Origin: Kappaphycus alvarezii
Lineage: Eukaryota; Rhodophyta; Florideophyceae; Gigartinales; Solieriaceae
DNA length: 64,000 nucleotides
Assembly: GCA_002205965.3 (NCBI GenBank)
Contig: NADL03000613.1
Span: 1,174,833 to 1,238,832 of the forward strand
Direction of reading: 5' to 3'
Under the pieces are notes generated by a model. That model was not told where the DNA came from. It did not search any database and worked only from the letters and a program-made list of their open reading frames with translations. Positions 19,366 to 63,329 of the stretch are shown here, piece after piece (positions within the stretch are counted from its first letter, which is position 1; each line of letters begins with the position of its first letter). The translations under genes were made by a program, and so were the position numbers.

Positions 19366-19373
19366 TATTTAAA
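19366..19373 (+). promoter_or_regulatory. Upstream TATA-like box of solo LTR
   Basis: TATTTAAA in CAGTATTTAAACTT, flanked by TCGAAGACGTCG and TTCGAAGTCGACG. It lies about 155 bp before the first ATG of the acidic ORF. Confidence 0.5.
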
Positions 19374-19525
19374 CTTCGAAGTCGACGTTGTTGAGGCAAC
19401 CCCCCGCCATTAACTATCCCATCGGCTCACCCCTTCTTTTAGCCCTTAACTTGACCAAACTCCGTCCTTACCTCACCATCACCAAGTCATCCCGAGGCCG
19501 TCGTCCACTCAACGCTTTGGCCCTG

Positions 19526-31506: not shown

Positions 31507-31649
31507 AGGGGATGCGAGTGTTGTGGCGATTGATGAAAAGAACGCAAGACGGCCCGTAGAGCGAAAGAGACGGTGGGACCGCCTTAGATTGGTGAGTGAT
31601 CTCATGTTTGTGCCGTCATCGGCTTACAACTGATTCCGTATGATATTGT

Positions 31650-33876: not shown

Positions 33877-34225
33877 GACTCTGTTAGGCGCAGATTTTTT
33901 TTTGTCGCCGTCATCTACAGGCCTATAGTTTACTGTACTACCTCTCCTTGTCCAAATTTGCTTATAGTTCCGGTCCTTCCTCGTCCTCCCTGAACCTCGC
34001 TTATCATTACCGCGGTCCTCCCAAATTTACTTCCATTTTATCTAGATATTTTTATACTGTATCTACCCCTCTGAATCGATCCCGAATCAAGTTCTTTTTC
34101 CCTTTTTGCTTACCTCCTCCTCCAAATTCGTTTTTTTTGAGAAAAAGGGCGCAAATGCACTACTACAAAATCCCTTGCAGATTTATTTTACCTATTCCTA
34201 ATCGATAGAACCTGCCCCGGGAGCC

Positions 34226-34233
34226 TATTTAAA
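34226..34233 (+). promoter_or_regulatory. Upstream LTR promoter box (acidic ORF), 5' LTR
   Basis: TATTTAAA, 109 bp before the acidic ORF ATG. The equivalents are at 41793-41800 (3' LTR), 55391-55398 and 62990-62997 (element 2), and also in the four other LTR lineages. Conservation in position and sequence supports a promoter; no transcript evidence is available. Confidence 0.55.
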
Positions 34234-34341
34234 CCTTTTTATTCCAAGTTTCAAACGTCCCTGATCATTTTACTCATCACTCCTCTCCCCAACACACCCA
34301 AAACACCCTCTATCCTCCGTCTACAATCATTTACAACCAAA

Positions 34342-34963
34342 ATGAGCAACCTTCGCCCCTCCGCCCCCATCACTAAAAACCGCCCCTCTCGCCCCTTAAA
34401 CGGCCTTGCGCTCGCAGTATATGGCCCGACGGATGCAGACGACTACCTGAGACGGCAGACTAAGAAGAAGATAATAGAATTCGTCCGCAAGCTCTTCGTC
34501 GAGGATGAGGCCGAGGAGGTACCTGAGGGTCAGGAGTGGGACATCGAGGAGGGAGCTGGGGAGACCTTTGAGGAGTGGGTAGCCCCTGGATTGGTCTATG
34601 AGGTTAATAACGAGGAGGACGGGAGATGAGGTGAAGAGGAGGATGAGATGAGGATGAGGATGAGAGGAGGATGAGGATGAGGATGAGGATGAAGAGGAGG
34701 AAGAGGAGGATGACGAGGACGAGGACGAGTTGGATGAGGGAAATGGGGGCATGGAAAGTGTTGTACTGGTGGGGCCTGGACTGGAGAGTATGGATCAAGT
34801 GGTGCCGACGCTGGAACCGGATGGAGATATCTTTAGTAGTTTAGATATCTCCCAGGAGGGAATAGAGAGCTGTGAGCCATTCGCAGATATTTGTGGGGAC
34901 TGCTTGGACAGCATGGATATTTTAGAGGAGTTGTTTGGATCTGATTTAGAGAATGGGAAATAA
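34342..34963 (+). pseudogene. LTR-encoded acidic protein, 5' LTR of element 1
   Basis: ATG 34342 in AACCAAAATGA. The first part is open to 34629 (MSNLRPSAPIT, GPTDADDYLRRQTKKK, EEWVAPGLVYEVNN). Slippage in the GAGGAT/GAGGAC repeat (34610-34735) shifts the frame. The second part (34730-34963) has VVPTLEPDGDIFSSLD, ISQE and MDILEELFGSDLENGK. The same protein is intact in the LTR at 54177. Only repeat-length change disables it. Confidence 0.85.
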
Positions 34964-35090
34964 GAGGACCTCATTGATTGTTAGTTTCTTAAGTATCTTT
35001 TGTTTAGAGTATATCATCCACACAAATTGTTTGTATGCATTTCCTGGTACCTTCTGTAGTTTTGTTCGGACTTTAGGGTAGCCAAAAGTC

Positions 35091-35098
35091 TATATAAG
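35091..35098 (+). promoter_or_regulatory. Downstream LTR TATA box (genomic RNA), 5' LTR
   Basis: TATATAAG in GTCTATATAAGCTGAGTAAAC, downstream of the acidic ORF and about 300 bp from the LTR end. Retained in elements 2 (54484-54491 and 62091-62098, complement), the facing LTR pair, the solo LTR and, as CTATATAAG, in element 3. Confidence 0.6.
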
Positions 35099-35406
35099 CT
35101 GAGTAAACCGCTTCCTCATGGAGAGGTCAAGCAAGTTGGCAGACAGCTTCAAGCTCAGTCCCAAATAGTTAGGAAGTTGAGAGTCAACTTCAGACCCAAG
35201 AAGCATTTATTTTACCCTAGTCACTAAGCATAGGTGGTAGACCCTGCCCCTTCCATACTTGCTTGTAGCCCATTCAACTGTCTCCCTATACACTCCTTTT
35301 CGTTCGTTCAACTATACCACGGTAGCACTTTTGTCGCTTGCAACACCTCCTTCTTGGGGTGGTTGATTCTGAATATCTCTTCTCCCGACGATTTACCCCT
35401 ATCATT

Positions 35407-35424
35407 TGGTACTCTTGTGGAGGG
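35407..35424 (+). promoter_or_regulatory. Primer-binding site of gypsy element 1
   Basis: TGGTACTCTTGTGGAGGG two bases after the LTR end; TGG is the complement of a tRNA CCA tail. It is identical in elements 2 and 3 and nearly so in element 4. I cannot assign the tRNA from memory. Confidence 0.65.
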
Positions 35425-35493
35425 GGTTGCACCCGAGGTATTCGAGTTGAGCAGTCTTAGGGAACCATTCGAGGGGATTTCTTTTCTGTAATC

Positions 35494-36552
35494 ATGGATC
35501 TCAACGCTGCTCGTATAACGTTCACAGGGGGCAAGAATGAAGACGTTGAGGAGTTTCTCTATACATATGTCAACGTTGTGATGCGTGAGAAGAGCGATGA
35601 AGAGAAGGCCGAAAGTATCTTCGCCTATCTTCATGGTGACGCAAAGCACAAATATAAGGCCAAGTTTATCAACGGGTGGTCTCTTAACGGGAATGGGCGT
35701 AACTTCGGTGAGGTATGTGAGTGGCTTGTGAAAGAATATGCTAAGGAGGTAGAACCAGATGAGATGATTCGTACCGCCATAGAGGCCCGGCTCAACTTCG
35801 ACGATTTGTTAAGCTCATTGGTATACTTGTGTGATCTCTATGAAAAGGCTGGGTTCAACGCCCAAGCCAAGTACGGAATGCTGCGTAAGGCGGCGATGGG
35901 GGATAAGCGGCTCTCCGATTTCCTCCTCATCAAGGGCCCTCACACTTTTAATGAACTGAAGGGTACCATAGTAGAATTTGTCAAAAATTCGGAGACGTTT
36001 CAGTCACTAAGTGAAATGCCGACGGAAACCCGTACATCTATGCCGATCGTACATCCTGAAAAGAATTATCAAAGGCCAGCTACTAGCGCAGCAGCATTGG
36101 AATCAGTCAGGAGCGATGTCAAAAACTTGGAAGAAAGGTTGGAAACCCGATTCGATAATCGACTTGACATGATAACCTCGCAGTTGGAAAGCCTTACTCT
36201 TACCATTAAGAAGAACCAGTCTGGGGCCCCCAAGGCCGCAGAAGTCTGTTCCTACTGTCACAAGCCTGGACACTTTGCAAATAGGTGTCCTGATAATCCA
36301 CATAGAAACACTCGTTGTGGAAAGTGCGGTCGATATGGGCATCATGAAAGTAACTGCTGGTCTAAAGACAACAGAAAAGCAAATTTATCGGACGCAAGGA
36401 GCGAGTCAGGACCAGAGATGAAAATCTTACAAAACAGAAAGGATCACAAGTTGACGGATGCCGGTAACGTATCCATCGCTGAAGAAATCAGTCAAGTCAA
36501 TGTGACAAAAAGGGATGGGGAAGGGAACATTTTATCGAAAAACCTAGGCTAG
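35494..36552 (+). CDS. Gag, gypsy element 1 (frameshifted at 3' end)
   Basis: 352 codons from ATG 35494. Residues 1-200 are a capsid-like region (MDLNAARITFTGG, EVEPDEMIRTAIEARLNFDD). 205-240 is heptad-like and probably coiled coil. Two CCHC knuckles lie at 252-265 (CSYCHKPGHFANRC) and 275-288 (CGKCGRYGHHESNC) and should bind element RNA. In element 2 the same frame continues into protease with no stop, so gag and pol are one polyprotein. Here one base is missing near 36539, giving a stop at NLG. Confidence 0.9.
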   Translation: MDLNAARITFTGGKNEDVEEFLYTYVNVVMREKSDEEKAESIFAYLHGDAKHKYKAKFINGWSLNGNGRNFGEVCEWLVKEYAKEVEPDEMIRTAIEARLNFDDLLSSLVYLCDLYEKAGFNAQAKYGMLRKAAMGDKRLSDFLLIKGPHTFNELKGTIVEFVKNSETFQSLSEMPTETRTSMPIVHPEKNYQRPATSAAALESVRSDVKNLEERLETRFDNRLDMITSQLESLTLTIKKNQSGAPKAAEVCSYCHKPGHFANRCPDNPHRNTRCGKCGRYGHHESNCWSKDNRKANLSDARSESGPEMKILQNRKDHKLTDAGNVSIAEEISQVNVTKRDGEGNILSKNLG

Positions 36553-36560
36553 ATTATGGA

Positions 36561-37373
36561 ATGCTGGAACATATCCCAGCACCTGTACCTCCTCGAACCA
36601 AGAGGTCTGATCAAGTTGTTCCAGGAGTGGGAGTCACTCCGGCCAAGAAGACGAAAAAGAGTAAGAAATTTAAGAATATCCCAAAGGACGTACTAGAATA
36701 TGTGAAGAAGTACAATTTGGTGGCTGAGCTTGCATCAGCCCCAACTGGGATAACGTTTGGTCAACTTTTGAGGGGCGACGCAGAGGACGCGAGGAAAGAA
36801 CTCAAAAAAATTATCAGGTCTAATAAGTCCGCTAAGGGTAAGAAACTGTTTCTTCAATCGGCCTCGACAGCACCAAGACGTCTTAAACTAGTACCAGTCA
36901 AAGTATTGGGAATGCAAACCCAAGCTCTTTTCGATTCGGGCGCTGTTCCAAACCTTATTTCAGAAACTTTGGTGACAGATCTAGGTCTTGAAATTATTCC
37001 AACTACTCGAAGAATAACTGTGGCGGATGGAACCGTATCAAAATGCATGGGCACTGTTGACAAGGTTTCCGTGTTCTTTGGGGACTCTAAAGTTGATTTA
37101 GACTTTCTTGTCATGCCTGATCTCCCTTTCGATGCAATCATTGGCTGCCCTACCATGGAAAGACTAGGGACCTGCATTGACTTGGGCAACCAAATCGTTT
37201 CAGTTAATGTTGACGGCAGAACCGTGAAGATGCCCCTGGATTTCGACAAAAGCACACATCCGGTAGATTTGAAAGAAACGGACAGTGAAGATTTCACTTC
37301 TAGCTATGACAGCGAAGATTCGAACCAACTAACACTTTCGGAAGTGGAGAAGGGTACGCTCGGGGGATACTGA
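36561..37373 (+). CDS. Aspartic protease region, gypsy element 1
   Basis: Open frame after the gag frameshift. The retropepsin active site is ALFDSGAVPNLIS (about 36922-36960), and a conserved downstream hydrophobic strand reads FDAIIGCPTMERLG (about 37120). Before it lie a Lys-rich stretch (TPAKKTKKSKKFKN) and a linker. A missing T near 37319 ends the frame at 37373; element 2 reads through. Expected to cleave the gag-pol polyprotein. Confidence 0.88.
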   Translation: MLEHIPAPVPPRTKRSDQVVPGVGVTPAKKTKKSKKFKNIPKDVLEYVKKYNLVAELASAPTGITFGQLLRGDAEDARKELKKIIRSNKSAKGKKLFLQSASTAPRRLKLVPVKVLGMQTQALFDSGAVPNLISETLVTDLGLEIIPTTRRITVADGTVSKCMGTVDKVSVFFGDSKVDLDFLVMPDLPFDAIIGCPTMERLGTCIDLGNQIVSVNVDGRTVKMPLDFDKSTHPVDLKETDSEDFTSSYDSEDSNQLTLSEVEKGTLGGY

Positions 37374-37375
37374 AC

Positions 37376-37672
37376 ATGGCATGGGATGATTATGATTCTG
37401 GGTTTGAAACAGATGAAGACTGGAATTCTAGGGTAGGTGTGACACCTGAATGTGTTTCTTTTTGCGATAATATCGAATCAAAGGACGGAATTCGGAGCAT
37501 GAAAGAAGATTACAATTGCAAGGAAAACAGGAATATATCGGATTCCATATCTGAAGATGTGAGCACGCCGGAAAAGGTCCTTCAAAATTTGAGGTTGAGA
37601 ATCAAGAAGAAAAAGGCGCCAAATGGCAGAAATCAAGGAAAAGTGCAGCACCTTCCCGCCCCGCCTCACTGA
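37376..37672 (+). pseudogene. Acidic linker between protease and RT, element 1
   Basis: Frame continuing the polyprotein after the frameshift (MAWDDYDSGFETDEDW). Acidic and without a recognised domain, it ends by another indel near 37590. The intact equivalent lies in the element 2 ORF. Confidence 0.6.
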
Positions 37673-37736
37673 AAATATCCGACATTTAACATCTTCCGAA
37701 GTAATTGCATGGAGTGTTCAGATTTAAGACAAGCAA

Positions 37737-39314
37737 GTGTACCGGTCACTCACTCATTTGAACTTACCGATACTCAACCAATTTACCACAGGCCTAGACG
37801 TCAACCGCCAAAATATGACCAATTTATCTCAGAGAATTGTTACAAGTATGCTGGAAAATGATATTATTCGGCCAGTTTCATCCCCATGGTCATTTCCAGT
37901 TGTGATAGCACCAAAGAAAGATGGAAAACTTCGCTTTTGCGTCGATTACCGACAGCTGAACCAGAGAATGATACCCGATCGATTTCCGATTCCAAACATG
38001 GAAGAAATCCTCGAGGACTTGAAGGACGGGAGATACTTCACCTCAATTGATCTTTACACTGGTTATTGGCAGATTCCATTAGATGAAAAATGTAAGGAAA
38101 TAACAACTTTTACCAGCAAAGCCGGTACATTCAGGTTCGAAGTGATGCCTTTTGGTCTCATGAATGCCCCAGCTACATTCCAAAGAATGATGAACGAGGT
38201 TTTGAAAGGACTTCCATTTGCAAGAGTTTATATCGATGATGTGGTGATATTCTCAAAAACCTTGGATCAGCACATATCGCATGTCAAGACTGTGGTGGAG
38301 AGAATAGATGCGTACAGCCTGAAAATTAAGTTAAGCAAATGCTTCTTTGCGAAAACGTCTATCCAATTACTCGGTCATATCGTCGATCAAGAGGGAATTA
38401 AAGTGGATCCAGAGAAAACGAAAAAAATCAAGTTGGCACCCAGGCCCGCTTCAAAGACGGAGGTTCGAAGCTTCTTAGGACTGGCCTCATATTACAGAAG
38501 ATTTATCAAAGATTTCGCCAAAACTGCAGCACCGTTACATGCCAGCACTACGAAGAACGGAAAATTTTACTGGAACAAGGAAATGCAGACTGCATTTGAG
38601 GAGCTTAAAGATAAGCTATGTGTCCCCCCAGTGCTCATGTATCCAGATTTCAAGAGACCATTTGTTGTGGAGACAGATGCCTCAGAACGGTCTTTGGGTG
38701 CCATTTTGTCCCAAAAAGACGAAAACGGAAGACTACACCCTGTTCAATTCGCAAGTCGCACTCTGAATGATGCGGAAAAGAGATACTCAGTCTGCGAGAA
38801 AGAAGCGCTAGCTGTCGTCTTCGCACTGAAAAAGTTTCGTGTTTACCTTTTATCACTCGAGAAATTTGTCTTGATAACTGATCACCAGGCACTTAAGACA
38901 GCATTCCAAAAGAAAGATGTACATCACCGCTTGGCCCGATGGCTCGACATTTTCGCAGAATATCGGTTTGAAATTGTGTATAGGCCCGGACGCAATAATC
39001 AGCCTGCCGATTACCTATCCCGCTTGAGGGATCCATTGATTCCAAATGAAAAAGCTTCCGAAGACATCGTCGGAGTTGCCGAAGTTCAAGTGCCGATCGA
39101 TAACGAGTACGAAGCTTATATTCACGGACTTATTAAATTCCTTGATGGACTAGAAATGAGAAAGGTTGATCTCGAACACAGAAATTGGGTACGCAGGAAC
39201 CAAAGGCCTTTACATTGTGGAATGGGAAACTCTTCCGACACACAAAGCCGGTCCCGACTAGTGGCCCCTTTGAAAGAAAGAATGAAGATCTTGAGGACTT
39301 TCATGATGAGCTAG
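37737..39314 (+). CDS. Reverse transcriptase and RNase H, element 1
   Basis: 525-codon frame. [15 protein letters not shown] (finger), [32 protein letters not shown], and the catalytic box YIDDVVIFSKT near 38230. Connection: FLGLASYYRRFIKDFAK. RNase H: FVVETDASERSLGAILSQ (first Asp), [18 protein letters not shown] (Glu) and [10 protein letters not shown] (Asp). Gypsy class is set by RT sequence and by RT-RNaseH-integrase order. The frame fails in the pre-integrase region (about 39260) by an indel. A run of six C near 38627 keeps the frame here; element 2 has five. Confidence 0.93.
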   Translation: MYRSLTHLNLPILNQFTTGLDVNRQNMTNLSQRIVTSMLENDIIRPVSSPWSFPVVIAPKKDGKLRFCVDYRQLNQRMIPDRFPIPNMEEILEDLKDGRYFTSIDLYTGYWQIPLDEKCKEITTFTSKAGTFRFEVMPFGLMNAPATFQRMMNEVLKGLPFARVYIDDVVIFSKTLDQHISHVKTVVERIDAYSLKIKLSKCFFAKTSIQLLGHIVDQEGIKVDPEKTKKIKLAPRPASKTEVRSFLGLASYYRRFIKDFAKTAAPLHASTTKNGKFYWNKEMQTAFEELKDKLCVPPVLMYPDFKRPFVVETDASERSLGAILSQKDENGRLHPVQFASRTLNDAEKRYSVCEKEALAVVFALKKFRVYLLSLEKFVLITDHQALKTAFQKKDVHHRLARWLDIFAEYRFEIVYRPGRNNQPADYLSRLRDPLIPNEKASEDIVGVAEVQVPIDNEYEAYIHGLIKFLDGLEMRKVDLEHRNWVRRNQRPLHCGMGNSSDTQSRSRLVAPLKERMKILRTFMMS

Positions 39315-39318
39315 GGCA

Positions 39319-39741
39319 TTGGGATCTCGAAACAACCAAAAAATTCGTACTGAGAGATTCTGGTGGCCCAGTATCCATAAGGACGTCTATAATTTCGTGA
39401 AAAGCTGTGACAACTGTCAAAAATTCACTCCGATACGAAAGTATAAGACAACCCTAAGCTTCCCAGTTTCCGCTCTCTTTGAAACCTTCTCAATTGACTT
39501 TGCCGGCCCATTCAAGGAAACCTCTTCCGGAAACAAATACCTCCTTATAGGGGTGGAACATCTTACTGGATGGCCAATAGCAGTTGCAGTTGAGGAGGCC
39601 AATGCTGAGGTGGTCCTGAGATTCATCGAAAAAGAAATAATTGAACCGTTTGGTCTTCCAAAAAGGATCATCTCAGATAACGCCCTTTGTTTTACTGCAA
39701 CTTCACTGCTTCGTTTCTTGGAAGAGAAGGGATTCAGCTGA
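39319..39741 (+). pseudogene. Integrase N-terminal part, element 1
   Basis: HHCC zinc module (ELGHWD just upstream, then FVKSCDNCQK at about 39395) and the first two catalytic residues: FSIDFAGPF near 39490 and IISDNALCF near 39670. The frame ends at FLEEKGFS, where one A is missing relative to element 3; the core continues in another frame from 39687. The same lesion occurs in element 2. Confidence 0.88.
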
Positions 39742-41411
39742 AGACAGTTCTCGCATACGCTCCTATGTCAAACGGTAAAGCGGAGAGGATGGTTGGAACC
39801 ATCAAACGAGCAATATCGAAAACTATGTCGAAGAATGAAATCCAGTGGGAAGATGCCTTACCAAAAGTGTTATACGGCTATCGTCGAAGAAGAGGAAGAA
39901 GCGGACGGTCACCATTCGAGCTAATGTACGGAAGGGCTCCTAGAATGTTACAGAGAGACATGGAAACAAATATTATCGATGAAGAGAGTAGAGAAGTCGA
40001 ACTACTGGCCACTGAAGGCTGGAGATCACACCGCGCGCTAACACAGACAAGAAATAAGAATGAAGAGCCTCCAGTCCAAACCTTTTCAGTCGGCTCTAAA
40101 GTACTTGTAGTACATGGGAAAGCAATGCAGCAGGCTGTGAAGTGGCCGGCCTTCCAAACAAAGTACTCGAATCCTTGCGTCGTCACGGAGGAAAGACACC
40201 CGCACTATAAGCTATGTTCAAGCTCAGGGAAGAGATCAAGGAGGGCCATCCATGCACGTCGTCTAGTCCCTTACCATCAGAGGCCTGAAGAATTCCTTCT
40301 CACACAGGACTATGCGCAACCACGGGGCATACTCATCTTTAACTATAGAATGATTCCTATGGGAGGAAAAAGGGCCTGGGAATGGATCATCTCGATTACG
40401 CGTGACTACTACGAACTCCACGTAATCGTCCATTTCTACATTAATATATGCCTATGTTTTCGTACGTTGAACGGACCATTGCTACCTCAAGAAGATTTCC
40501 GACTATTGATCAGAATTCTATTCTCATTCCAAAACGGAAGGTTCACGGAAGCAGGTCCAGAGTTTGTGGAAGTCATATATCATTACTCTATAGGAAGGTA
40601 TGGAATGGTAGCTATCGGAGACTTGTCGCAAACATATCTGAACATTATCCGTCCGGTTTACGTATTTCTTAAGAACAACCAAGATGTGCGACTGAGAGGT
40701 TACAGCTTGCCCCCTGATATGGAATATCGACTGGTCCCGTATCCTCTATGGGAACCTTACGTTGCTCCGCTCAGAAACACAACCTCAGCCGAAGACCAGG
40801 ATCCTCCCGAGGCCGTGATGATGATACGAGCTGGACCATCAAGTGATCGGGGCGGATCATCGAAGAGGGCAAGGCGTCGGGAGCAGCGAGGAAGATCGCC
40901 AAGAAGATCGCCTCAAACACCGCCTAGTCTCCCAGGGGGAAACTATGCATCCTTAATTATTGGACGGCTACCAATTAGACGTTGGCTTCGCGAAATGACA
41001 GAGGACCCACGAGAAGCAGAAGTAATTTCCTTTTTTGCAATTAGTATTTGCATGTGCTTCCAGACCATTCACGGGGCGCACCTTACTCGTGAGGACTCAG
41101 TCCTTATGTTGCGAGTTTTTTTCTCCTTCAGATACCCGTTTCTGGACCCGTTGCCAGAAAAGTTTGCATACTACGTTTATTACCTCACATTTGGAAGGTT
41201 TGGAGAAGTGAAACGGGAGGAGCTCATTAGAGAACACTATGAAACCATACGCCGAATCTACGAAACTCTTGACCAAGGAGATGAGCCGGTCATCGCACGG
41301 TACACACTCTCTCATCATATTGGAAATGAGCTACTACCATATCCTTATAGTGAACCCTATACTCTCCCTGATGAATGGATAGAACTCCCACAAGAACAAC
41401 AAGAGCATTGA
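39687..41411 (+). CDS. Integrase C-terminus plus duplicated accessory domain, element 1
   Basis: 574-codon frame. Residues 10-50 finish the integrase core (LAYAPMSNGKAERMVG, catalytic Glu). 130-200 form the integrase C-terminal module (VGSKVLVVHGK, KWPAFQTKYSNP). No chromodomain is seen. Residues about 233-362 and 433-564 are two homologous copies of an unfamiliar domain. Each has NICLCFRTLNG / SICMCFQTIHG, L-x2-ED, RILFSFQNGRF / RVFFSFRYPF, a PE-x(9)-Y hydrophobic segment, a GR(Y/F)G turn, and PYPxxEPY near the end. The linker 385-415 is Arg/Ser-rich (SSKRARRREQ, RGRSPRRSPQ), NLS-like. The ORF stops 30 bp before the G-run next to the 3' LTR, so the domain is part of pol. Function unknown; not env-like (no signal peptide). 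Confidence 0.9.
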   Translation: MFYCNFTASFLGREGIQLKTVLAYAPMSNGKAERMVGTIKRAISKTMSKNEIQWEDALPKVLYGYRRRRGRSGRSPFELMYGRAPRMLQRDMETNIIDEESREVELLATEGWRSHRALTQTRNKNEEPPVQTFSVGSKVLVVHGKAMQQAVKWPAFQTKYSNPCVVTEERHPHYKLCSSSGKRSRRAIHARRLVPYHQRPEEFLLTQDYAQPRGILIFNYRMIPMGGKRAWEWIISITRDYYELHVIVHFYINICLCFRTLNGPLLPQEDFRLLIRILFSFQNGRFTEAGPEFVEVIYHYSIGRYGMVAIGDLSQTYLNIIRPVYVFLKNNQDVRLRGYSLPPDMEYRLVPYPLWEPYVAPLRNTTSAEDQDPPEAVMMIRAGPSSDRGGSSKRARRREQRGRSPRRSPQTPPSLPGGNYASLIIGRLPIRRWLREMTEDPREAEVISFFAISICMCFQTIHGAHLTREDSVLMLRVFFSFRYPFLDPLPEKFAYYVYYLTFGRFGEVKREELIREHYETIRRIYETLDQGDEPVIARYTLSHHIGNELLPYPYSEPYTLPDEWIELPQEQQEH

Positions 41412-41440
41412 GAACGAGACGGGACGTTCGACCTAAGTCC

Positions 41441-41447
41441 GGGGGGG
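41441..41447 (+). promoter_or_regulatory. Polypurine tract candidate, element 1
   Basis: GGGGGGG directly before the 3' LTR TG. The element 2 counterpart is CCCCCCC at 55743-55749. Confidence 0.6.
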
Positions 41448-42973
41448 TGTTAGGCGCAGATTTTTTTTTGTCGCCGTCATCTACAGGCCTATAGTTTACT
41501 GTACTACCTCTCCTTGTCCAAATTTGCTTATAGTTCCGGTCCTTCCTCGTCCTCCCTGAACCTCGCTTATCATTACCGCGGTCCTCCCCAAATTTACTTC
41601 CATTTTATCTAGATATTTTTATACTGTATCTACCCCTCTGAATCGATCCCGAATCAAGTTCTTTTTCCCTTTTTGCTTACCTCCTCCTCCAAATTCGTTT
41701 TTTTTGAGAAAAAGGGCGCAAATGCACTACTACAAAATCCCTTGCAGATTTATTTTACCTATTCCTAATCGATAGAACCTGCCCCGGGAGCCTATTTAAA
41801 CCTTTTTATTCCAAGTTTCAAACGTCCCTGATCATTTTACTCATCACTCCTCTCCCCAACACACCCAAAACACCCTCTATCCTCCGTCTACAATCATTTA
41901 CAACCAAAATGAGCAACCTTCGCCCCTCCGCCCCCATCACTAAAAACCGCCCCTCTCGCCCCTTAAACGGCCTTGCGCTCGCAGTATATGGCCCGACGGA
42001 TGCAGACGACTACCTGAGACGGCAGACTAAGAAGAAGATAATAGAATTCGTCCGCAAGCTCTTCGTCGAGGATGAGGCCGAGGAGGTACCTGAGGGTCAG
42101 GAGTGGGACATCGAGGAGGGAGCTGGGGAGACCTTTGAGGAGTGGGTAGCCCCTGGATTGGTCTATGAGGTTAATAACGAGGAGGAGGAGATGAGGTGAG
42201 GGGAAGAGGAGGATGAGGAATGAGGATGAAGAGGAGGATGAGGATGAGGATGAGGATGAAGAGGAGGAAGAGGAGGATGACGAGGACGAGGACGAGTTGG
42301 ATGAGGGAAATGGGGGCATGGAAAGTGTTGTACTGGTGGGGCCTGGACTGGAGAGTATGGATCAAGTGGTGCCGACGCTGGAACCGGATGGAGATATCTT
42401 TAGTAGTTTAGATATCTCCCAGGAGGGAATAGAGAGCTGTGAGCCATTCGCAGATATTTGTGGGGACTGCTTGGACAGCATGGATATTTTAGAGGAGTTG
42501 TTTGGATCTGATTTAGAGAATGGGAAATAAGAGGACCTCATTGATTGTTAGTTTCTTAAGTATCTTTTGTTTAGAGTATATCATCCACACAAATTGTTTG
42601 TATGCATTTCCTGGTACCTTCTGTAGTTTTGTTCGGACTTTAGGGTTAGCCAAAAGTCTATATAAGCTGAGTAAACCGCTTCCTCATGGAGAGGTCAAGC
42701 AAGTTGGCAGACAGCTTCAAGCTCAGTCCCAAATAGTTAGGAAGTTGAGAGTCAACTTCAGACCCAAGAAGCATTTATTTTACCCTAGTCACTAAGCATA
42801 GGTGGTAGACCCTGCCCCTTCCATACTTGCTTGTAGCCCATTCAACTGTCGTCCCTATACACTCCTTTTCGTTCGTTCAACTATACCACGGTAGCACTTT
42901 TGTCGCTTGCAACACCTCCTTCTTGGGGTGGTTGATTCTGAATATCTCTTCTCCCGACGATTTACCCCTATCA
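41448..42973 (+). repeat. 3' LTR of gypsy element 1
   Basis: 1526 bp, nearly identical to 33882-35404. Contains TATTTAAA 41793-41800, acidic ORF 41909-42530, and TATATAAG 42659-42666. Confidence 0.95.
41909..42530 (+). pseudogene. LTR-encoded acidic protein, 3' LTR of element 1
   Basis: Same protein as at 34342. First part open to 42199; second frame 42213-42530 with the acidic tract and C-terminal MDILEELFGSDLENGK. The acidic repeat has a different length from the 5' LTR of the same element and again breaks the frame. Confidence 0.85.
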
Positions 42974-54176: not shown

Positions 54177-54483
54177 TGATAGGGGTAAATCGTCGGGAGA
54201 AGAGATATTCAGAATCAACCACCCCAAGAAGGAGGTGTTGCAAGCGACAAAAGTGCTACCGTGGTATAGTTGAACAAACGAAAAGGAGTGTATAGGGAAG
54301 ACAGTTGAATGGGCTACAAGCAAGTATGGAAGGGGCAGGGTCTACCACCTATGCTTAGTGACTAGGGTAAAATAAATGCTTCTTGGGTCTGAAGTTGACT
54401 CTCAACTTCCTAACTATTTGGGACTGAGCTTGAAGCTGTCTGCCAACTTCCTTCACCTCTCCATGAGGAAGCGGTTTACTCAG

Positions 54484-54491
54484 CTTATATA
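54484..54491 (-). promoter_or_regulatory. Downstream LTR TATA box, 3' LTR of element 2
   Basis: CTTATATA on the plus strand, TATATAAG on the LTR strand, 129 bp past the acidic ORF stop. Confidence 0.55.
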
Positions 54492-54619
54492 GACTTTTGG
54501 CTACCCCTAAAGTCCGAACAAAACTACAGAAGGTACCAGGAAATGCATACAAACAATTTGTGTGGATGATATACTCTAAACAAAAGATACTTAAGAAACT
54601 AACAATCAATGAGGTCCTC

Positions 54620-55282
54620 TTATTTCCCATTCTCTAAATCAGATCCAAACAACTCCTCTAAAATATCCATGCTGTCCAAGCAGTCCCCACAAATATCTGC
54701 GAATGGCTCACAGCTCTCTATTCCCTCCTGGGAGATATCTAAACTACTAAAGATATCTCCATCCGGTTCCAGCGTCGGCACCACTTGATCCATACTCTCC
54801 AGTCCAGGCCTCACCAGTAAAACACTTTCCATGCCCCCATTTCCCTCATCCAACTCGTCCTCGTCCTCGTCATCCTCCTCTTCCTCCTCTTCATCCTCAT
54901 CCTCATCCTCATCCTCATCCTCATCCTCATCCTCATCCTCATCCTCATCCTCCTCTTCAACCTCATCCTCATCCTCATCCTCCTCTTCAACCTCATCTCC
55001 CCGTCCTCCTCGGTTATTAACCTCATAGACCAATCCAGGGGCTACCCACTCCTCAAAGGTCTCCCCAGCTCCCTCCTCGATGTCCCACTCCTGACCCTCA
55101 GGTACCTCCTCGGCCTCATCCTCGACGAAGAGCTTGCGGACGAATTCTATTATCTTCTTCTTAGTCTGCCGTCTCAGGTAGTCGTCTGCATCCGTCGGGC
55201 CATATACTGCGAGCGCAAGGCCGTTTAAGGGGCGAGAGGGGCGGTTTTTAGTGATGGGGGCGGAGGGGCGAAGGTTGCTCAT
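54620..55282 (-). CDS. LTR-encoded acidic protein, intact
   Basis: 220 codons, ATG 55282 to stop 54620, entirely inside U3 of the LTR. N-terminal part (1-65): MSNLRPSAPITKNRPSRPL, GPTDADDYLRRQTKKK and a basic amphipathic stretch (IIEFVRKLFVED). Then EEWVAPGLVYEVNN, about 55 residues nearly all Asp/Glu, and a C-terminal 75 residues with MDQVVPTLEPDGDIFSSLD and PFADICGDC...MDILEELFGSDLE. The end mixes bulky hydrophobics with acids, as acidic activation domains do; that is inference. TATTTAAA lies 109 bp upstream. Homologues sit in five LTR lineages here. No signal peptide and no nuclease or polymerase motifs. I recognise no described family. Confidence 0.8.
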   Translation of the reverse strand: MSNLRPSAPITKNRPSRPLNGLALAVYGPTDADDYLRRQTKKKIIEFVRKLFVEDEAEEVPEGQEWDIEEGAGETFEEWVAPGLVYEVNNRGGRGDEVEEEDEDEDEVEEEDEDEDEDEDEDEDEDEDEDEEEEEEDDEDEDELDEGNGGMESVLLVRPGLESMDQVVPTLEPDGDIFSSLDISQEGIESCEPFADICGDCLDSMDILEELFGSDLENGK

Positions 55283-55390
55283 TTTGGTTGTAAATGATTG
55301 TAGACGGAGGATAGAGGGTGTTTTGGGTGTGTTGGGGAGAGGAGTGATGAGTAAAATGATCAGGGACGTTTGAAACTTGGAATAAAAAGG

Positions 55391-55398
55391 TTTAAATA
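55391..55398 (-). promoter_or_regulatory. Upstream LTR promoter box for acidic ORF, element 2
   Basis: TTTAAATA on the plus strand (TATTTAAA on the LTR strand), 109 bp before ATG 55282. Same spacing as in element 1. Confidence 0.55.
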
Positions 55399-55778
55399 GG
55401 CTCCCGGGGCAGGTTCTATCGATTAGGAATAGGTAAAATAAATCTGCAAGGGATTTTGTAGTAGTGCATTTGCGCCCTTTTTCTCAAAAAAAACGAATTT
55501 GGAGGAGGAGGTAAGCAAAAAGGGAAAAAGAACTTGATTCGGGATCGATTCAGAGGGGTAGATACAGTATAAAAATATCTAGATAAAATGGAAGTAAATT
55601 TGGGGAGGACCGCGGTAATGATAAGCGAGGTTCAGGGAGGACGAGGAAGGACCGGAACTATAAGCAAATTTGGACAAGGAGAGGTAGTACAGTAAACTAT
55701 AGGCCTGTAGATGACGGCGACAAAAAAAATCTGCGCCTAACACCCCCCCGGACTTAGGTCGAACGTCCCGTCTCGTTC

Positions 55779-57502
55779 TCAATGCTCTTGTTGTTCTTGT
55801 GGGAGTTCTATCCATTCATCAGGGAGAGTATAGGGTTCACTATAAGGATATGGTAGTAGCTCATTTCCAATATGATGAGAGAGTGTGTACCGTGCGATGA
55901 CCGGCTCATCTCCTTGGTCAAGAGTTTCGTAGATTCGGCGTATGGTTTCATAGTGTTCTCTAATGAGCTCCTCCCGTTTCACTTCTCCAAACCTTCCAAA
56001 TGTGAGGTAATAAACGTAGTATGCAAACTTTTCTGGCAACGGGTCCAGAAACGGGTATCTGAAGGAAAAAAAACTCGCAACATAAGGACTGAGTCCTCAC
56101 GAGTAAGGTGCGCCCCGTGAATGGTCTGGAAGCACATGCAAATACTAATTGCAAAAAAGGAAATTACTTCTGCTTCTCGTGGGTCCTCTGTCATTTCGCG
56201 AAGCCAACGTCTAATTGGTAGCCGTCCAATAATTAAGGATGCATAGTTTCCCCCTGGGAGACTAGGCGGTGTTTGAGGCGATCTTCTTGGCGATCTTCCT
56301 CGCTGCTCCCGACGCCTTGCCCTCTTCGATGATCCGCCCCGATCACTTGATGGTCCAGCTCGTATCATCATCACGGCCTCGGGAGGATCCTGGTCTTCGG
56401 CTGAGGTTGTGTTTCTGAGCGGAGCAACGTAAGGTTCCCATAGAGGATACGGGACCAGTCGATATTCCATATCAGGGGGCAAGCTGTAACCTCTCAGTCG
56501 CACATCTTGGTTGTTCTTAAGAAATACGTAAACCGGACGGATAATGTTCAGATATGTTTGCGACAAGTCTCCGATAGCTACCATTCCATACCTTCCTATA
56601 GAGTAATGATATATGACTTCCACAAACTCTGGACCTGCTTCCGTGAACCTTCCGTTTTGGAATGAGAATAGAATTCTGATCAATAGTCGGAAATCTTCTT
56701 GAGGTAGCAATGGTCCGTTCAACGTACGAAAACATAGGCATATATTAATGTAGAAATGGACGATTACGTGGAGTTCGTAGTAGTCACGCGTAATCGAGAT
56801 GATCCATTCCCAGGCCCTTTTTCCTCCCATAGGAATCATTCTATAGTTAAAGATGAGTATGCCCCGTGGTTGCGCATAGTCCTGTGTGAGAAGGAATTCT
56901 TCAGGCCTCTGATGGTAAGGGACTAGACGACGTGCATGGATGGCCCTCCTTGATCTCTTCCCTGAGCTTGAACATAGCTTATAGTGCGGGTGTCTTTCCT
57001 CCGTGACGACGCAAGGATTCGAGTACTTTGTTTGGAAGGCCGGCCACTTCACAGCCTGCTGCATTGCTTTCCCATGTACTACAAGTACTTTAGAGCCGAC
57101 TGAAAAGGTTTGGACTGGAGGCTCTTCATTCTTATTTCTTGTCTGTGTTAGCGCGCGGTGTGATCTCCAGCCTTCAGTGGCCAGTAGTTCGACTTCTCTA
57201 CTCTCTTCATCGATAATATTTGTTTCCATGTCTCTCTGTAACATTCTAGGAGCCCTTCCGTACATTAGCTCGAATGGTGACCGTCCGCTTCTTCCTCTTC
57301 TTCGACGATAGCCGTATAACACTTTTGGTAAGGCATCTTCCCACTGGATTTCATTCTTCGACATAGTTTTCGATATTGCTCGTTTGATGGTTCCAACCAT
57401 CCTCTCCGCTTTACCGTTTGACATAGGAGCGTATGCGAGAACTGTCTTCAGCTGAATCCCTTCTCTTCCAAGAAACGAAGCAGTGAAGTTGCAGTAAAAC
57501 AA
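55779..57502 (-). CDS. Integrase C-terminus plus duplicated accessory domain, element 2
   Basis: 507-codon frame (57502-55979) plus a shifted last 86 codons (56039-55779). Near-identical to element 1 residues 1-574: integrase end, Arg/Ser linker, accessory repeat 1 (about 56806-56417) and repeat 2 (about 56206-55811). The only break is an extra-base shift near 56055 in the FFSF segment. Two nearly independent readings of the same long frame support that it is a real product. Confidence 0.88.
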
Positions 57503-57792
57503 AGGGCGTTATCTGAGATGATCCTTTTTGGAAGACCAAACGGTTCAATTATTTCTTTTTCGATGAATCTCAGGACCACCTCAGCATTGGCCTCCTCAAC
57601 TGCAACTGCTATTGGCCATCCAGTAAGATGTTCCACCCCTATAAGGAGGTATTTGTTTCCGGAAGAGGTTTCCTTGAATGGGCCGGCAAAGTCAATTGAG
57701 AAGGTTTCAAAGAGAGCGGAAACTGGGAAGCTTAGGGTTGTCTTATACTTTCGTATCGGAGTGAATTTTTGACAGTTGTCACAGCTTTTCAC
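57448..57792 (-). pseudogene. Integrase core start, element 2
   Basis: SCDNCQK zinc residues, FSIDFAGPF and IISDNALCF catalytic motifs, ending FLEEKGFS at the same missing-A site as element 1 (about 57463). Confidence 0.88.
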
Positions 57793-58569
57793 GAAATTAT
57801 AGACGTCCTTATGGATACTGGGCCACCAGAATCTCTCGTACGAATTTTTTGGTTGTTTCGAGATCCCAATGCCCTACTCATCATGAAAGTCCTCAAGATC
57901 TTCATTCTTTCTTTCAAAGGGGCCACTAGTCGGGACCGGCTTTGTGTGTCGGAAGAGTTTCCCATTCCACAATGTAAAGGCCTTTTGGTTCCTGCGTACC
58001 CAATTTCTGTGTTCGAGATCAACCTTTCTCATTTCTAGTCCATCAAGGAATTTAATAAGTCCGTGAATATAAGCTTCGTACTCGTTATCGATCGGCACTT
58101 GAACTTCGGCAACTCCGACGATGTCTTCGGAAGCTTTTTCATTTGGAATCAATGGATCCCTCAAGCGGGATAGGTAATCGGCAGGCTGATTATTGCGTCC
58201 GGGCCTATACACAATTTCAAACCGATATTCTGCGAAAATGTCGAGCCATCGGGCCAAGCGGTGATGTACATCTTTCTTTTGGAATGCTGTCTTAAGTGCC
58301 TGGTGATCAGTTATCAAGACAAATTTCTCGAGTGATAAAAGGTAAACACGAAACTTTTTCAGTGCGAAGACGACAGCTAGCGCTTCTTTCTCGCAGACTG
58401 AGTATCTCTTTTCCGCATCATTCAGAGTGCGACTTGCGAATTGAACAGGGTGTAGTCTTCCGTTTTCGTCTTTTTGGGACAAAATGGCACCCAAAGACCG
58501 TTCTGAGGCATCTGTCTCCACAACAAATGGTCTCTTGAAATCTGGATACATGAGCACTGGGGGACACAT
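57793..58569 (-). pseudogene. RNase H and pre-integrase, element 2
   Basis: [31 protein letters not shown] and [10 protein letters not shown] (RNase H), then YRPGRNNQPADYLSRL and the zinc-module start. Separated from RT by one missing C at about 58560 and from integrase by indels near 57840-57880. Confidence 0.88.
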
Positions 58570-61500
58570 AGCTTATCTTTAAGCTCCTCAAATGCAGTCT
58601 GCATTTCCTTGTTCCAGTAAAATTTTCCGTTCTTCGTAGTGCTGGCATGTAACGGTGCTGCAGTTTTGGCGAAATCTTTGATAAATCTTCTGTAATATGA
58701 GGCCAGTCCTAAGAAGCTTCGAACCTCCGTCTTTGAAGCGGGCCTGGGTGCCAACTTGATTTTTTTCGTTTTCTCTGGATCCACTTTAATTCCCTCTTGA
58801 TCGACGATATGACCGAGTAATTGGATAGACGTTTTCGCAAAGAAGCATTTGCTTAACTTAATTTTCAGGCTGTACGCATCTATTCTCTCCACCACAGTCT
58901 TGACATGCGATATGTGCTGATCCAAGGTTTTTGAGAATATCACCACATCATCGATATAAACTCTTGCAAATGGAAGTCCTTTCAAAACCTCGTTCATCAT
59001 TCTTTGGAATGTAGCTGGGGCATTCATGAGACCAAAAGGCATCACTTCGAACCTGAATGTACCGGCTTTGCTGGTAAAAGTTGTTATTTCCTTACATTTT
59101 TCATCTAATGGAATCTGCCAATAACCAGTGTAAAGATCAATTGAGGTGAAGTATCTCCCGTCCTTCAAGTCCTCGAGGATTTCTTCCATGTTTGGAATCG
59201 GAAATCGATCGGGTATCATTCTCTGGTTCAGCTGTCGGTAATCGACGCAAAAGCGAAGTTTTCCATCTTTCTTTGGTGCTATCACAACTGGAAATGACCA
59301 TGGGGATGAAACTGGCCGAATAATATCATTTTCCAGCATACTTGTAACATTCTCTGAGATAAATTGGTCATATTTTGGCGGTTGACGTCTAGGCCTGTGG
59401 TAAATTGGTTGAGTATCGGTAAGTTCAAATGAGTGAGTGACCGGTACACTTGCTTGTCTTAAATCTGATACACTCCATGCAATTACTTCGGAAGATGCTA
59501 ACATGTCGGATATTTTCAGTGAGGCGGCGGCGGGAAGGTGCTGCACTTTTCCTTGGATTTCTGCCATTTGGCGCCTTTTCTTCTGATTCTCCTCAATATT
59601 TTGAAGGACCTTTTCCGGCGTGCTCACATCTTCAGATATGGAATCCGATATATTCCTGTTTTCCTTGCAATTGTAATCTTCTTTCATGCTCCGAATTCCG
59701 TCCTTTGATTCGATATTATCGCAAAAAGAAACACATTCAGGTGTCACACCTACCCTAGAATTCCAGTCTTCATCTGTTTCAAACCCAGAATCATAATCAT
59801 CCCATGCCATGTTCAGTATCCCCCGAGCGTACCCTTCTCCACTTCCGAAAGTGTTAGTTGGTTCGAAATCTTCGCTGTCATAGCTAGAAGTGAAATCTTC
59901 ACTGTCCGTTTCTTTCAAATCTACCGGATGTGTGCTTTTGTCGAAATCCAGGGGCATCTTCACGGTTCTGCCGTCAACATTAACTGAAACGATTTGGTTG
60001 CCCAAGTCAATGCAGGTCCCTAGTCTTTCCATGGTAGGGCAGCCAATGATTGCATCGAAAGGGAGATCAGGCATGACAAGAAAGTCTAAATCAACTTTAG
60101 AGTCCCCAAAGAACACGGAAACCTTGTCAACAGTGCCCATGCATTTTGATACGGTTCCATCCGCCACAGTTATTCTTCGAGTAGTTGGAATAATTTCAAG
60201 ACCTAGATCTGTCACCAAAGTTTCTGAAATAAGGTTTGGAACAGCGCCCGAATCGAAAAGAGCTTGGGTTTGCATTCCCAATACTTTGACTGGTACTAGT
60301 TTAAGACGTCTTGGTGCTGTCGAGGCCGATTGAAGAAACAGTTTCTTACCCTTAGCGGACTTATTAGACCTGATAATTTTTTTGAGTTCTTTCCTCGCGT
60401 CCTCTGCGTCGCCCCTCAAAAGTTGACCAAACGTTATCCCAGTTGGGGCTGATGCAAGCTCAGCCACCAAATTGTACTTCTTCACATATTCTAGTACGTC
60501 CTTTGGGATATTCTTAAATTTCTTACTCTTTTTCGTCTTCTTGGCCGGAGTGACTCCAACTCCTGGAACAACTTGATCAGACCTCTTGGTTCGAGGAGGT
60601 ACAGGTGCTGGGATATGTTCCAGCATTCCATAATCTAGCCTAGGTTTCTTCGATAAAATGTTCCCTTCCCCATCCCTTTTTGTCACATTGACTTGACTGA
60701 TTTCTTCAGCGATGGATACGTTACCGGCATCCGTCAACTTGTGATCCTTTCTGTTTTGTAAGATTTTCATCTCTGGTCCTGACTCGCTCCTTGCGTCCGA
60801 TAAATTTGCTTTTCTGTTGTCTTTAGACCAGCAGTTACTTTCATGATGCCCATATCGACCGCACTTTCCACAACGAGTGTTTCTATGTGGATTATCAGGA
60901 CACCTATTTGCAAAGTGTCCAGGCTTGTGACAGTAGGAACAGACTTCTGCGGCCTTGGGGGCCCCAGACTGGTTCTTCTTAATGGTAAGAGTAAGGCTTT
61001 CCAACTGCGAGGTTATCATGTCAAGTCGATTATCGAATCGGGTTTCCAACCTTTCTTCCAAGTTTTTGACATCGCTCCTGACTGATTCCAATGCTGCTGC
61101 GCTAGTCGCTGGCCTTTGATAATTCTTTTCAGGATGTACGATCGGCATAGATGTACGGGTTTCCGTCGGCATTTCACTTAGTGACTGAAACGTCTCCGAA
61201 TTTTTGACAAATTCTACTATGGTACCCTTCAGTTCATTAAAAGTGTGAGGGCCCTTGATGAGGAGGAAATCGGAGAGCCGCTTATCCCCCATCGCCGCCT
61301 TACGCAGCATTCCGTACTTGGCTTGGGCGTTGAACCCAGCCTTTTCATAGAGATCACACAAGTATACCAATGAGCTTAACAAATCGTCGAAGTTGAGCCG
61401 GGCCTCTATGGCGGTACGAATCATCTCATCTGGTTCTACCTCCTTAGCATATTCTTTCACAAGCCACTCACATACCTCACCGAAGTTACGCCCATTCCCG

Positions 61501-61694
61501 TTAAGAGACCACCCGTTGATAAACTTGGCCTTATATTTGTGCTTTGCGTCACCATGAAGATAGGCGAAGATACTTTCGGCCTTCTCTTCATCGCTCTTCT
61601 CACGCATCACAACGTTGACATATGTATAGAGAAACTCCTCAACGTCTTCATTCTTGCCCCCTGTGAACGTTATACGAGCAGCGTTGAGATCCAT
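58422..61694 (-). CDS. Gag-protease-RT polyprotein, element 2
   Basis: 1090-codon uninterrupted frame from ATG 61694. Capsid-like 1-200, coiled-coil-like 205-240, CCHC knuckles 252-265 and 275-288, protease DSGA at about 480, acidic linker about 600-740, and RT about 790-1000 with YIDD at about 913-916. The last ~25 codons are out of frame after a C5 run (C6 in element 1). Gag and pol are therefore fused in one frame, with no frameshift signal between them. The start is the first ATG 90 bp inside the LTR. Confidence 0.94.
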   Translation of the reverse strand: MDLNAARITFTGGKNEDVEEFLYTYVNVVMREKSDEEKAESIFAYLHGDAKHKYKAKFINGWSLNGNGRNFGEVCEWLVKEYAKEVEPDEMIRTAIEARLNFDDLLSSLVYLCDLYEKAGFNAQAKYGMLRKAAMGDKRLSDFLLIKGPHTFNELKGTIVEFVKNSETFQSLSEMPTETRTSMPIVHPEKNYQRPATSAAALESVRSDVKNLEERLETRFDNRLDMITSQLESLTLTIKKNQSGAPKAAEVCSYCHKPGHFANRCPDNPHRNTRCGKCGRYGHHESNCWSKDNRKANLSDARSESGPEMKILQNRKDHKLTDAGNVSIAEEISQVNVTKRDGEGNILSKKPRLDYGMLEHIPAPVPPRTKRSDQVVPGVGVTPAKKTKKSKKFKNIPKDVLEYVKKYNLVAELASAPTGITFGQLLRGDAEDARKELKKIIRSNKSAKGKKLFLQSASTAPRRLKLVPVKVLGMQTQALFDSGAVPNLISETLVTDLGLEIIPTTRRITVADGTVSKCMGTVDKVSVFFGDSKVDLDFLVMPDLPFDAIIGCPTMERLGTCIDLGNQIVSVNVDGRTVKMPLDFDKSTHPVDLKETDSEDFTSSYDSEDFEPTNTFGSGEGYARGILNMAWDDYDSGFETDEDWNSRVGVTPECVSFCDNIESKDGIRSMKEDYNCKENRNISDSISEDVSTPEKVLQNIEENQKKRRQMAEIQGKVQHLPAAASLKISDMLASSEVIAWSVSDLRQASVPVTHSFELTDTQPIYHRPRRQPPKYDQFISENVTSMLENDIIRPVSSPWSFPVVIAPKKDGKLRFCVDYRQLNQRMIPDRFPIPNMEEILEDLKDGRYFTSIDLYTGYWQIPLDEKCKEITTFTSKAGTFRFEVMPFGLMNAPATFQRMMNEVLKGLPFARVYIDDVVIFSKTLDQHISHVKTVVERIDAYSLKIKLSKCFFAKTSIQLLGHIVDQEGIKVDPEKTKKIKLAPRPASKTEVRSFLGLASYYRRFIKDFAKTAAPLHASTTKNGKFYWNKEMQTAFEELKDKLCVPQCSCIQISRDHLLWRQMPQNGLWVPFCPKKTKTEDYTLFNSQVAL

Positions 61695-61783: not shown

Positions 61784-63329
61784 TGATAGGGGTAAATCGT
61801 CGGGAGAAGAGATATTCAGAATCAACCACCCCAAGAAGGAGGTGTTGCAAGCGACAAAAGTGCTACCGTGGTATAGTTGAACGAACGAAAAGGAGTGTAT
61901 AGGGACGACAGTTGAATGGGCTACAAGCAAGTATGGAAGGGGCAGGGTCTACCACCTATGCTTAGTGACTAGGGTAAAATAAATGCTTCTTGGGTCTGAA
62001 GTTGACTCTCAACTTCCTAACTATTTGGGACTGAGCTTGAAGCTGTCTGCCAACTTGCTTGACCTCTCCATGAGGAAGCGGTTTACTCAGCTTATATAGA
62101 CTTTTGGCTAACCCTAAAGTCCGAACAAAACTACAGAAGGTACCAGGAAATGCATACAAACAATTTGTGTGGATGATATACTCTAAACAAAAGATACTTA
62201 AGAAACTAACAATCAATGAGGTCCTCTTATTTCCCATTCTCTAAATCAGATCCAAACAACTCCTCTAAAATATCCATGCTGTCCAAGCAGTCCCCACAAA
62301 TATCTGCGAATGGCTCACAGCTCTCTATTCCCTCCTGGGAGATATCTAAACTACTAAAGATATCTCCATCCGGTTCCAGCGTCGGCACCACTTGATCCAT
62401 ACTCTCCAGTCCAGGCCCCACCAGTACAACACTTTCCATGCCCCCATTTTCCCTCATCCAACTCGTCCTCCTCTCATCCTCTCCTCTTCTCTCCTCATCC
62501 TCATCTCATCCTCATCCTCATCCTCATCCTCATCCTCATCCTCCTCTTCAACCTCATCCTCATCCTCATCTCCTCTTCATCCTCATCCTCCCCGTCCTCC
62601 TCGTTATTAACCTCATAGACCAATCCAGGGGCTACCCACTCCTCAAAGGTCTCCCCAGCTCCCTCCTCGATGTCCCACTCCTGACCCTCAGGTACCTCCT
62701 CGGCCTCATCCTCGACGAAGAGCTTGCGGACGAATTCTATTATCTTCTTCTTAGTCTGCCGTCTCAGGTAGTCGTCTGCATCCGTCGGGCCATATACTGC
62801 GAGCGCAAGGCCGTTTAAGGGGCGAGAGGGGCGGTTTTTAGTGATGGGGCGGAGGGGCGAAGGTTGCTCATTTTGGTTGTAAATGATTGTAGACGGAGGA
62901 TAGAGGGTGTTTTGGGTGTGTTGGGGAGAGGAGTGATGAGTAAAATGATCAGGGACGTTTGAAACTTGGAATAAAAAGGTTTAAATAGGCTCCCGGGGCA
63001 GGTTCTATCGATTAGGAATAGGTAAAATAAATCTGCAAGGGATTTTGTAGTAGTGCATTTGCGCCCTTTTTCTCAAAAAAAAATTTGGAGGAGGAGGTAA
63101 GCAAAAAGGGAAAAAGAACTTGATTCGGGATCGATTCAGAGGGGTAGATACAGTATAAAAATATCTAGATAAAATGGAAGTAAATTTGGGGAGGACCGCG
63201 GTAATGATAAGCGAGGTTCAGGGAGGACGAGGAAGGACCGGAACTATAAGCAAATTTGGACAAGGAGAGGTAGTACAGTAAACTATAGGCCTGTAGATGA
63301 CGGCGACAAAAAAAATCTGCGCCTAAACA
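61784..63329 (-). repeat. 5' LTR of gypsy element 2
   Basis: 1546 bp. CTTATATA 62091-62098, acidic ORF remnant, TTTAAATA 62990-62997. It differs from the 3' LTR mainly by indels in the GAGGAT repeat and one extra A at the terminus (CTAAACA). Confidence 0.95.
62227..62889 (-). pseudogene. LTR-encoded acidic protein, 5' LTR of element 2
   Basis: Same protein as 54620-55282. C-terminal part open at 62227-62457, with the N-terminal part (ATG near 62865) in another frame. The acidic repeat (62460-62600) has lost bases at several points, and one G is missing near 62848. Confidence 0.82.

Follow-up and report, generated by a model that had tools for sequence, protein, structure and literature searches.

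An optional open reading frame in the probable U3 region of Ty3/gypsy LTRs evolves under purifying selection and may encode a trans-acting regulator

Genes located in the U3 region of LTRs are known from vertebrate retroviruses. The Tas gene of spumaviruses overlaps the 3' LTR only in part, and typical members of Ty3/gypsy (Metaviridae) are not known to carry a gene inside the LTR. MMTV is described to harbor an ORF in U3 (Sag) and a U3 promoter, P2, in addition to its promoter P1 (PMC9412291). Tas (Bel1) is described as a trans-activator required for both the LTR and the internal promoter of spumaviruses (PMC8670036, PMC4929722). A literature search with partial coverage (titles and the beginnings of abstracts) yielded no example of an LTR retrotransposon that encodes a protein within its LTR.

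The DNA analyzed here, a stretch of 64 kb referred to as the window, stems from the 336-Mb genome of Kappaphycus alvarezii (884 contigs) and constitutes a nest of Ty3/gypsy elements (Table 1). Element A, whose 3' LTR contains the ORF under study (U3 ORF), shows the order PR-RT-RNaseH-integrase, and Ty3 is the nearest solved structure to its RT by sequence. Its LTRs end in TG...CA, the element is bordered by a short TSD, and a PBS-like site, TTTGGTACTCTTG, lies immediately 3' of the 5' LTR; TTTGG... adjoins 5' LTRs. TSDs of 5 bp flank elements A and B, the element at 3572-8859 and the element on contig C509, and were also found at 22 of 50 loci of the genome, which were typed as solo LTRs by this feature. 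Downstream of the integrase, a tandem pair of ~100-aa domains is present at 55782-56857 (minus strand) and 40332-41408 (plus strand), with copies ~30% identical to each other and without a match in Pfam.

Table 1. Features of the U3 ORF, its host element and related LTRs (window positions unless a contig is named)
Feature	Position	Strand	Remarks
Element A, Ty3/gypsy	63329 down to 54177	minus	TSD GGGTG at 54172-54176 and 63330-63334
3' LTR of element A	54177..55742	minus	1566 bp, TG...CA ends; U3 start at 55742
5' LTR of element A	61784..63329	minus	U3 ORF copy frameshifted
gag-PR-RT frame of element A	58422..61694	minus	Pfam
RNase H, part of integrase and post-integrase duplicated domain of element A	55779..58569	minus	
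U3 ORF	54620..55282	minus	ATG frame, 220 codons open, wholly within 3' LTR of element A
N-terminal block, aa 1-90	55013..55282	minus	GPTDxDDYL (GPTDxxDYL), then basic stretch; EWVxPxLVY
Asp/Glu tract, aa 91-148	54839..55012	minus	48 of 58 residues D/E; length varies between copies
C-terminal block, aa 149-220	54623..54838	minus	VVPxxxPDGD, DISQE, MDILEELFGSDL; acidic and hydrophobic
P1, TATTTAAA box upstream of ORF	55391..55398	minus	candidate promoter for transcribing the ORF separately
P2, TATATAAG box downstream of stop	54484..54491	minus	candidate genomic-RNA promoter; R-U5 presumably follows
Element B	33882..42973	plus	TSD GACTC; LTRs of element A's family; U3 ORF region in both, broken in both
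Solo LTR, fourth lineage	19139..20498	plus	1360 bp, TSD CACCC; decayed U3 ORF and P1
Decayed LTR, another lineage	23325..24800	minus	remnants of U3 ORF, P1 present; outer end approximate
Most divergent LTR in window	31600..32975	plus	U3 ORF remnants and P1; ends approximate
Sister element without U3 ORF	3572..8859	minus	LTRs 587-588 bp, TSD GTATG
Complete ORF-less element	contig C509 (L054 and L051)		TSD CCAAC; LTRs 716 and 719 bp, 99.4% identical

The initial annotation had described an intact 220-codon ORF entirely inside an LTR, and this holds: the ATG frame is open, and the LTR enclosing it recurs at the other end of element A. Further versions had been reported from LTRs across the window. 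The ordered sequence blocks indeed recur, whole or partial, in the facing LTRs (~10455-12963), in the solo LTR at 19139-20498 and its inverted copy (1-1160), in both LTRs of element B, and at ~23325-24800 and ~31600-32975, but among the copies translated that at 54620-55282 is the sole intact one, the others showing frameshifts or stops. The assignment of a copy to an ‘element 1’ is wrong if the element at 3572-8859 was meant, as its LTRs are devoid of the ORF, and the statement that the LTRs of this gypsy lineage encode the protein was too broad, since sister elements lack it. Both solo LTRs of the fourth lineage are contained in a 2.7-kb inverted repeat (1-2694 and 17603-20295, 99.5% identical), and they therefore probably represent one insertion duplicated along with its surroundings. 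A further arrangement was observed at 23325-30310 (minus strand), apparently a single old element with an ORF-less 5' LTR (29595 to ~30310) and an ORF-bearing 3' LTR (23325 to ~24800), the 3' parts of which are 79% alike over ~345 bp; this element is possibly a recombinant.

A genome-wide protein search with the ORF returned at least 172 matches at E <= 0.001 (of 10962 candidates, 150 were scored; some copies are represented by two partial matches), and a search with the N-terminal block of the fourth lineage at least 150 (150 of 5775 candidates scored). Six copies, on contigs C167, C595, C669, C679, C846 and C866, share an identical score (348 bits at 83% identity over query 2-220), as would be expected after a recent burst. 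The first 50 loci comprised the best 30 of the ranked protein search and 20 from further down, a sample that favors intact copies. The resulting set of main-backbone LTRs encompasses 53 rows, namely 49 loci with both LTR ends (L047 was dropped) and 4 LTRs of the window; as L001 is the window's own copy, one locus is counted twice. These LTRs have a length of 1511-1606 bp, those of the fourth lineage mostly ~1330-1396 bp. By type, the rows are 22 solo LTRs, 16 3' LTRs, 11 5' LTRs, two flanked by element sequence on both sides and two unclear cases. An intact ORF is present in 37 of the 53 rows, including 16 of the 22 solo-LTR rows, proportions to be read with the sample's preference for intact copies in mind. 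Of twenty fourth-lineage loci followed from the beginning of the ORF, L057 stays open throughout from an ATG (199 aa) and L066 from an ATT, and the remaining 18 are broken. Locus L053 contains host sequence at 2301-3789 and 6274-6810, with a match to glycosyltransferase family 2 and a fragment of a Plant_tran (Harbinger-like) transposase.

Two TATA-like boxes flank the ORF, which agrees with the placement in U3 originally proposed. P2 follows the stop codon at a distance of ~128 nt within a well conserved part of the LTR and, as it lies behind the stop, the ORF is probably located in U3 and not in R. The TATA-like box before the ORF had suggested a leader-encoded ORF situated in R; this possibility was discarded because the TATA-like box following the ORF is the more strongly conserved one. 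P1 and P2 were each found in 52 of 53 main-backbone rows. Of the 20 loci of the fourth lineage, 13 have an exact P1, three a P1 with one mismatch at the same place and four no close match there, and P2 is exact in 15 and carries one mismatch in five; L057, with its intact ORF, shows one mismatch in either box. In seven LTRs of six lineages (fam1-fam4, D, G, H), P1 precedes a common codon by 138-172 nt, the reference codon in H being shifted by one. When a 200-nt stretch was shuffled by mononucleotides, the sequence TATTTAAA arose in 0.3-0.9% of the shuffles (four lineages tested). Counted from 30 nt past P1 on, the first ATG is that of the ORF in all 52 main-backbone rows with P1. The simplest reading of this arrangement would be that P2 starts the genomic RNA and P1 a separate mRNA.

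Comparisons between lineages were used to assess the coding frame. In the N module (62 codons, three lineages, 3 pairs), GY94 omega amounts to 0.00-0.11 in the coding frame (p 5e-9 to 3e-16) and GY omega to 1.65-4.6 in both shifted forward frames. The NG ratio of one reverse frame is 0.31-0.36 in this module, which is read as a by-product of codon-position overlap. The C block (56 codons; fam1 versus fam4, L075 and L080) yields omega values of 0.07-0.19 in the coding frame (p 4e-4 to 9e-7) and GY values of 1.25-1.75 in the shifted forward frames, with an NG ratio of 0.84 in one control pair. For the intact full-length ORFs of L007 (fam1) and L057 (fam4), omega is 0.23 (p 5e-7) when codons encoding D/E in both sequences are left out. 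The decayed lineages G and H concur in part: the N block of G gives 0.21 against fam4 (p 0.001) and its C block 0.04 against fam1 (p 1e-4) and 0.36 against fam4 (p 0.07); the C block of H gives 0.27 (p 0.01) and 0.49 (p 0.11), respectively. The decayed window copy D against fam1 shows an omega of 2.2 in the C block, which is not significant (p 0.2). Over the whole ORF, omega is 0.59 for L007 versus L046 of fam3 (p 0.03) and 0.64 for L049 of fam2 versus L046 (p 0.07), values probably elevated in part because L046 reads a portion of the tract in another frame. The dN/dS comparison proposed in the initial annotation thus gives values below 1 between well separated lineages, but not among fourth-lineage-like loci, where fam4, L075 and L080 compared mutually range from 0.76 to 1.18 without significance. 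Changes seen once within a family have a normalized N/S of 0.83 in the C block and 0.91 in the fam1 N block of the fam1 backbone, based on few changes, and are lower in fam2 and fam4 (0.40 and 0.52) in a sample biased by protein-score ranking. This pattern fits a gene of the element that is constrained while its lineage moves and freer after insertion. A chance ORF was rejected by the frame controls: in the N and C blocks, neither of which includes the microsatellite, the coding frame shows a low omega, and each shifted forward frame reaches 1.2 or more. Judged from these substitution patterns, the ORF is real and its protein is kept by purifying selection, which applies to both the N and the C block and bears out the selection suspected at the outset.

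The encoded protein comprises 220 aa with a pI of 4.05. Its middle corresponds to a GAG/GAT microsatellite. In the window's intact ORF the acidic tract begins with RGGRGDEV, and EEDGED is found in most intact copies. The motif MDILEELFGSDL is followed by only a few residues, and the C-terminal 39 aa have a net charge of -11 and contain six W/F/Y/L by composition. In L031 and L046, a frame shift renders a portion of the acidic tract basic (RMRMR...) before the original frame is regained. The AlphaFold model (ten window rows) is uninformative, with a mean pLDDT of 50 and helices at 31-37, 41-52 and 193-212. A known domain was dismissed as identity of the protein: Pfam delivered sub-threshold matches only, located in or near the acidic tract, and the 21 matches from PDB were weak and overlapped it. 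Neither search revealed a known activation or DNA-binding domain, and no relatives were found in viral_contigs. In the fourth lineage, the acidic region of L057, L063 and L066 contains VIVISDSxDEDEE-like segments that are absent from the window's intact ORF, and the proteins of this lineage show a hydrophobic-then-acidic VIVISDSSDEDEE-like segment; we take both kinds of segment to resemble SUMO-interacting motifs.

The acidic-plus-hydrophobic C terminus, together with the basic N-terminal stretch, is compatible with a transactivator, a step suggested by composition only. The product of the U3 cassette, i.e. P1, a short leader without upstream ATG and an ORF of ~200-230 codons, followed by P2 and R-U5, is therefore only tentatively proposed, at somewhat less than even chances, to be a nuclear trans-acting regulator, most likely raising LTR transcription. 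Every LTR, even a solo one, would produce a short mRNA from P1, and the acidic, largely disordered product would work in the nucleus in trans, where it would most likely enhance transcription from the LTRs of the element. The N-terminal part might serve as a recognition or nuclear module and the acidic-hydrophobic C terminus as effector. Since P1 proved less universal than first thought, confidence in this regulator model is slightly lowered. The same composition could also be explained by an Asp/Glu tract that keeps the LTR chromatin open through binding to histones or to a silencing factor, without classical promoter activation. This anti-silencing role is the main rival of the regulator model, though unlikely on balance. 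In its favor, the tract stays acidic despite its length drift (D/E residues make up 80% or more of the inter-block stretch in 35 of 37 intact rows, with a length of 43-73), and the VIVISDSSDEDEE-like segment of the fourth lineage would suit it, being reminiscent of a SUMO-interacting motif, but the searches retrieved no matching domain beyond the subthreshold Pfam and tract-overlapping PDB matches, and the conserved hydrophobic block at the C terminus would be superfluous for a simple charge buffer.

If the regulator model applies, a lone solo LTR may represent a complete one-gene unit. On the genomic RNA, the copy in the 3' LTR would be the last ORF, and this position, along with the basic N-terminal stretch, would also suit an accessory factor of replication that aids assembly, nuclear entry or the choice of the integration site instead of transcription. 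Such a role appears rather unlikely, as the promoter-like box upstream of the ORF and the intact ORFs in solo LTRs would better fit an early regulator.

The N-terminal part of the cassette is exchangeable. When two LTRs of fam2 and one of fam3 were compared with L007 (fam1) as reference, they were 95.3-96.9% identical to it outside positions 361-840 and 65.0-66.7% identical at 421-660; at 661-720, fam2 is 98-100% and fam3 72% identical. From these steps it follows that the exchanged stretch begins in the P1 leader and ends near codon 66 in fam2 and near codon 86 in fam3. The presence of three N-terminal modules on one LTR backbone is, to judge from the alignment, a cassette swap. As the coding differences are biased to synonymous changes, an old module appears to have been swapped onto a common backbone, which argues against an adaptive burst. 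The five lineages with barely alignable DNA of the initial annotation are thus partly mosaics, with three N modules sharing one LTR backbone.

Entire cassettes are optional as well. Over 5042 aligned bases, the C509 element shares 96% identity with element A in its interior, and its LTR matches that of the fourth lineage on either side of the missing P1-ORF stretch, with ~100 bp unmatched in between; an open RNase H-integrase frame of 865 codons is found in this element at L051 2240-4837. The LTRs of the element at 3572-8859 combine a 96-98% identical 3' part with a third, ORF-less U3. The sequence TATTTAAA was found in none of five ORF-less LTRs (L051, L054, both of 3572-8859 and 29595-30310), and TATATAAG is kept in L051, L054 and the LTRs of 3572-8859, not in 29595-30310. 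ORF-plus and ORF-less LTRs resemble each other in the P2 region, so that a cis site peculiar to the former was not found. Given the recent movement of ORF-less elements, the protein is dispensable in cis, at least with other copies present, and the C509 element, with its TSD and nearly identical LTRs devoid of the ORF, suggests that the protein is optional and acts in trans. A tree of the P2-R-U5 region (16 rows) requires three changes to account for the ORF-less state, two of which are forced by well supported branches; with 8 of 13 inner branches weak and the LTRs mosaic, the tree gives no order of gain versus loss of the cassette. These changes, the joint lack of ORF and P1 in ORF-less LTRs and the three N modules on one backbone would all be expected of a satellite cassette that is selected for its own spread between LTRs by module exchange, with little benefit to the element. 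This explanation is nevertheless improbable, because both blocks are under purifying selection at high dS, which suggests a function replicating with the element. That there is no gene at all, and a microsatellite-driven frame was kept open by chance or by constraint at the DNA level, would agree with the GAG/GAT repeat in the middle and the near-neutral copies after insertion (N/S 0.83 and 0.91), but frame-specific omega contradicts it in the N and C blocks, neither of which contains the microsatellite, and it is highly improbable.

Returning to the regulator model, a broader version can be formulated, in which each LTR would be a free-standing regulatory gene, the N-terminal recognition module would be shuffled while the effector half stays constant, several specificity classes of trans-factors would exist, and ORF-less elements would parasitize the factors of others. 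Taken as a whole, this version is doubtful.

A selected, probably separately promoted and optional gene in a Ty3/gypsy LTR would show that LTR retrotransposons can carry regulatory accessory genes, and solo LTRs would then not necessarily be inert relics. ORF-plus and ORF-less sisters in the same genome provide a natural with/without comparison, which makes the question testable.

Compared with the known systems, element A shares gag, PR, RT, RNase H and integrase with Ty3/gypsy (Metaviridae), with an RT closest to Ty3 among solved structures. Pfam includes a Sag family, and neither the Pfam nor the PDB search produced a Sag-like match to the ORF protein. The parallel to MMTV drawn at the beginning is apt for the architecture, without a sequence relation in these searches: as with the MMTV U3 ORF (Sag/Naf), the gene probably resides in U3, and the second U3 promoter described for MMTV has a possible counterpart in the candidate boxes P1 and P2 (PMC9412291). 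Unlike Sag, which belongs to a vertebrate retrovirus, the ORF protein is acidic, optional between sister LTRs and, by reading of its sequence, devoid of a hydrophobic run of membrane-anchor length. With regard to the proposed function, the nearest model for the ORF product would be the spumavirus trans-activator Tas, as far as described (PMC8670036, PMC4929722).
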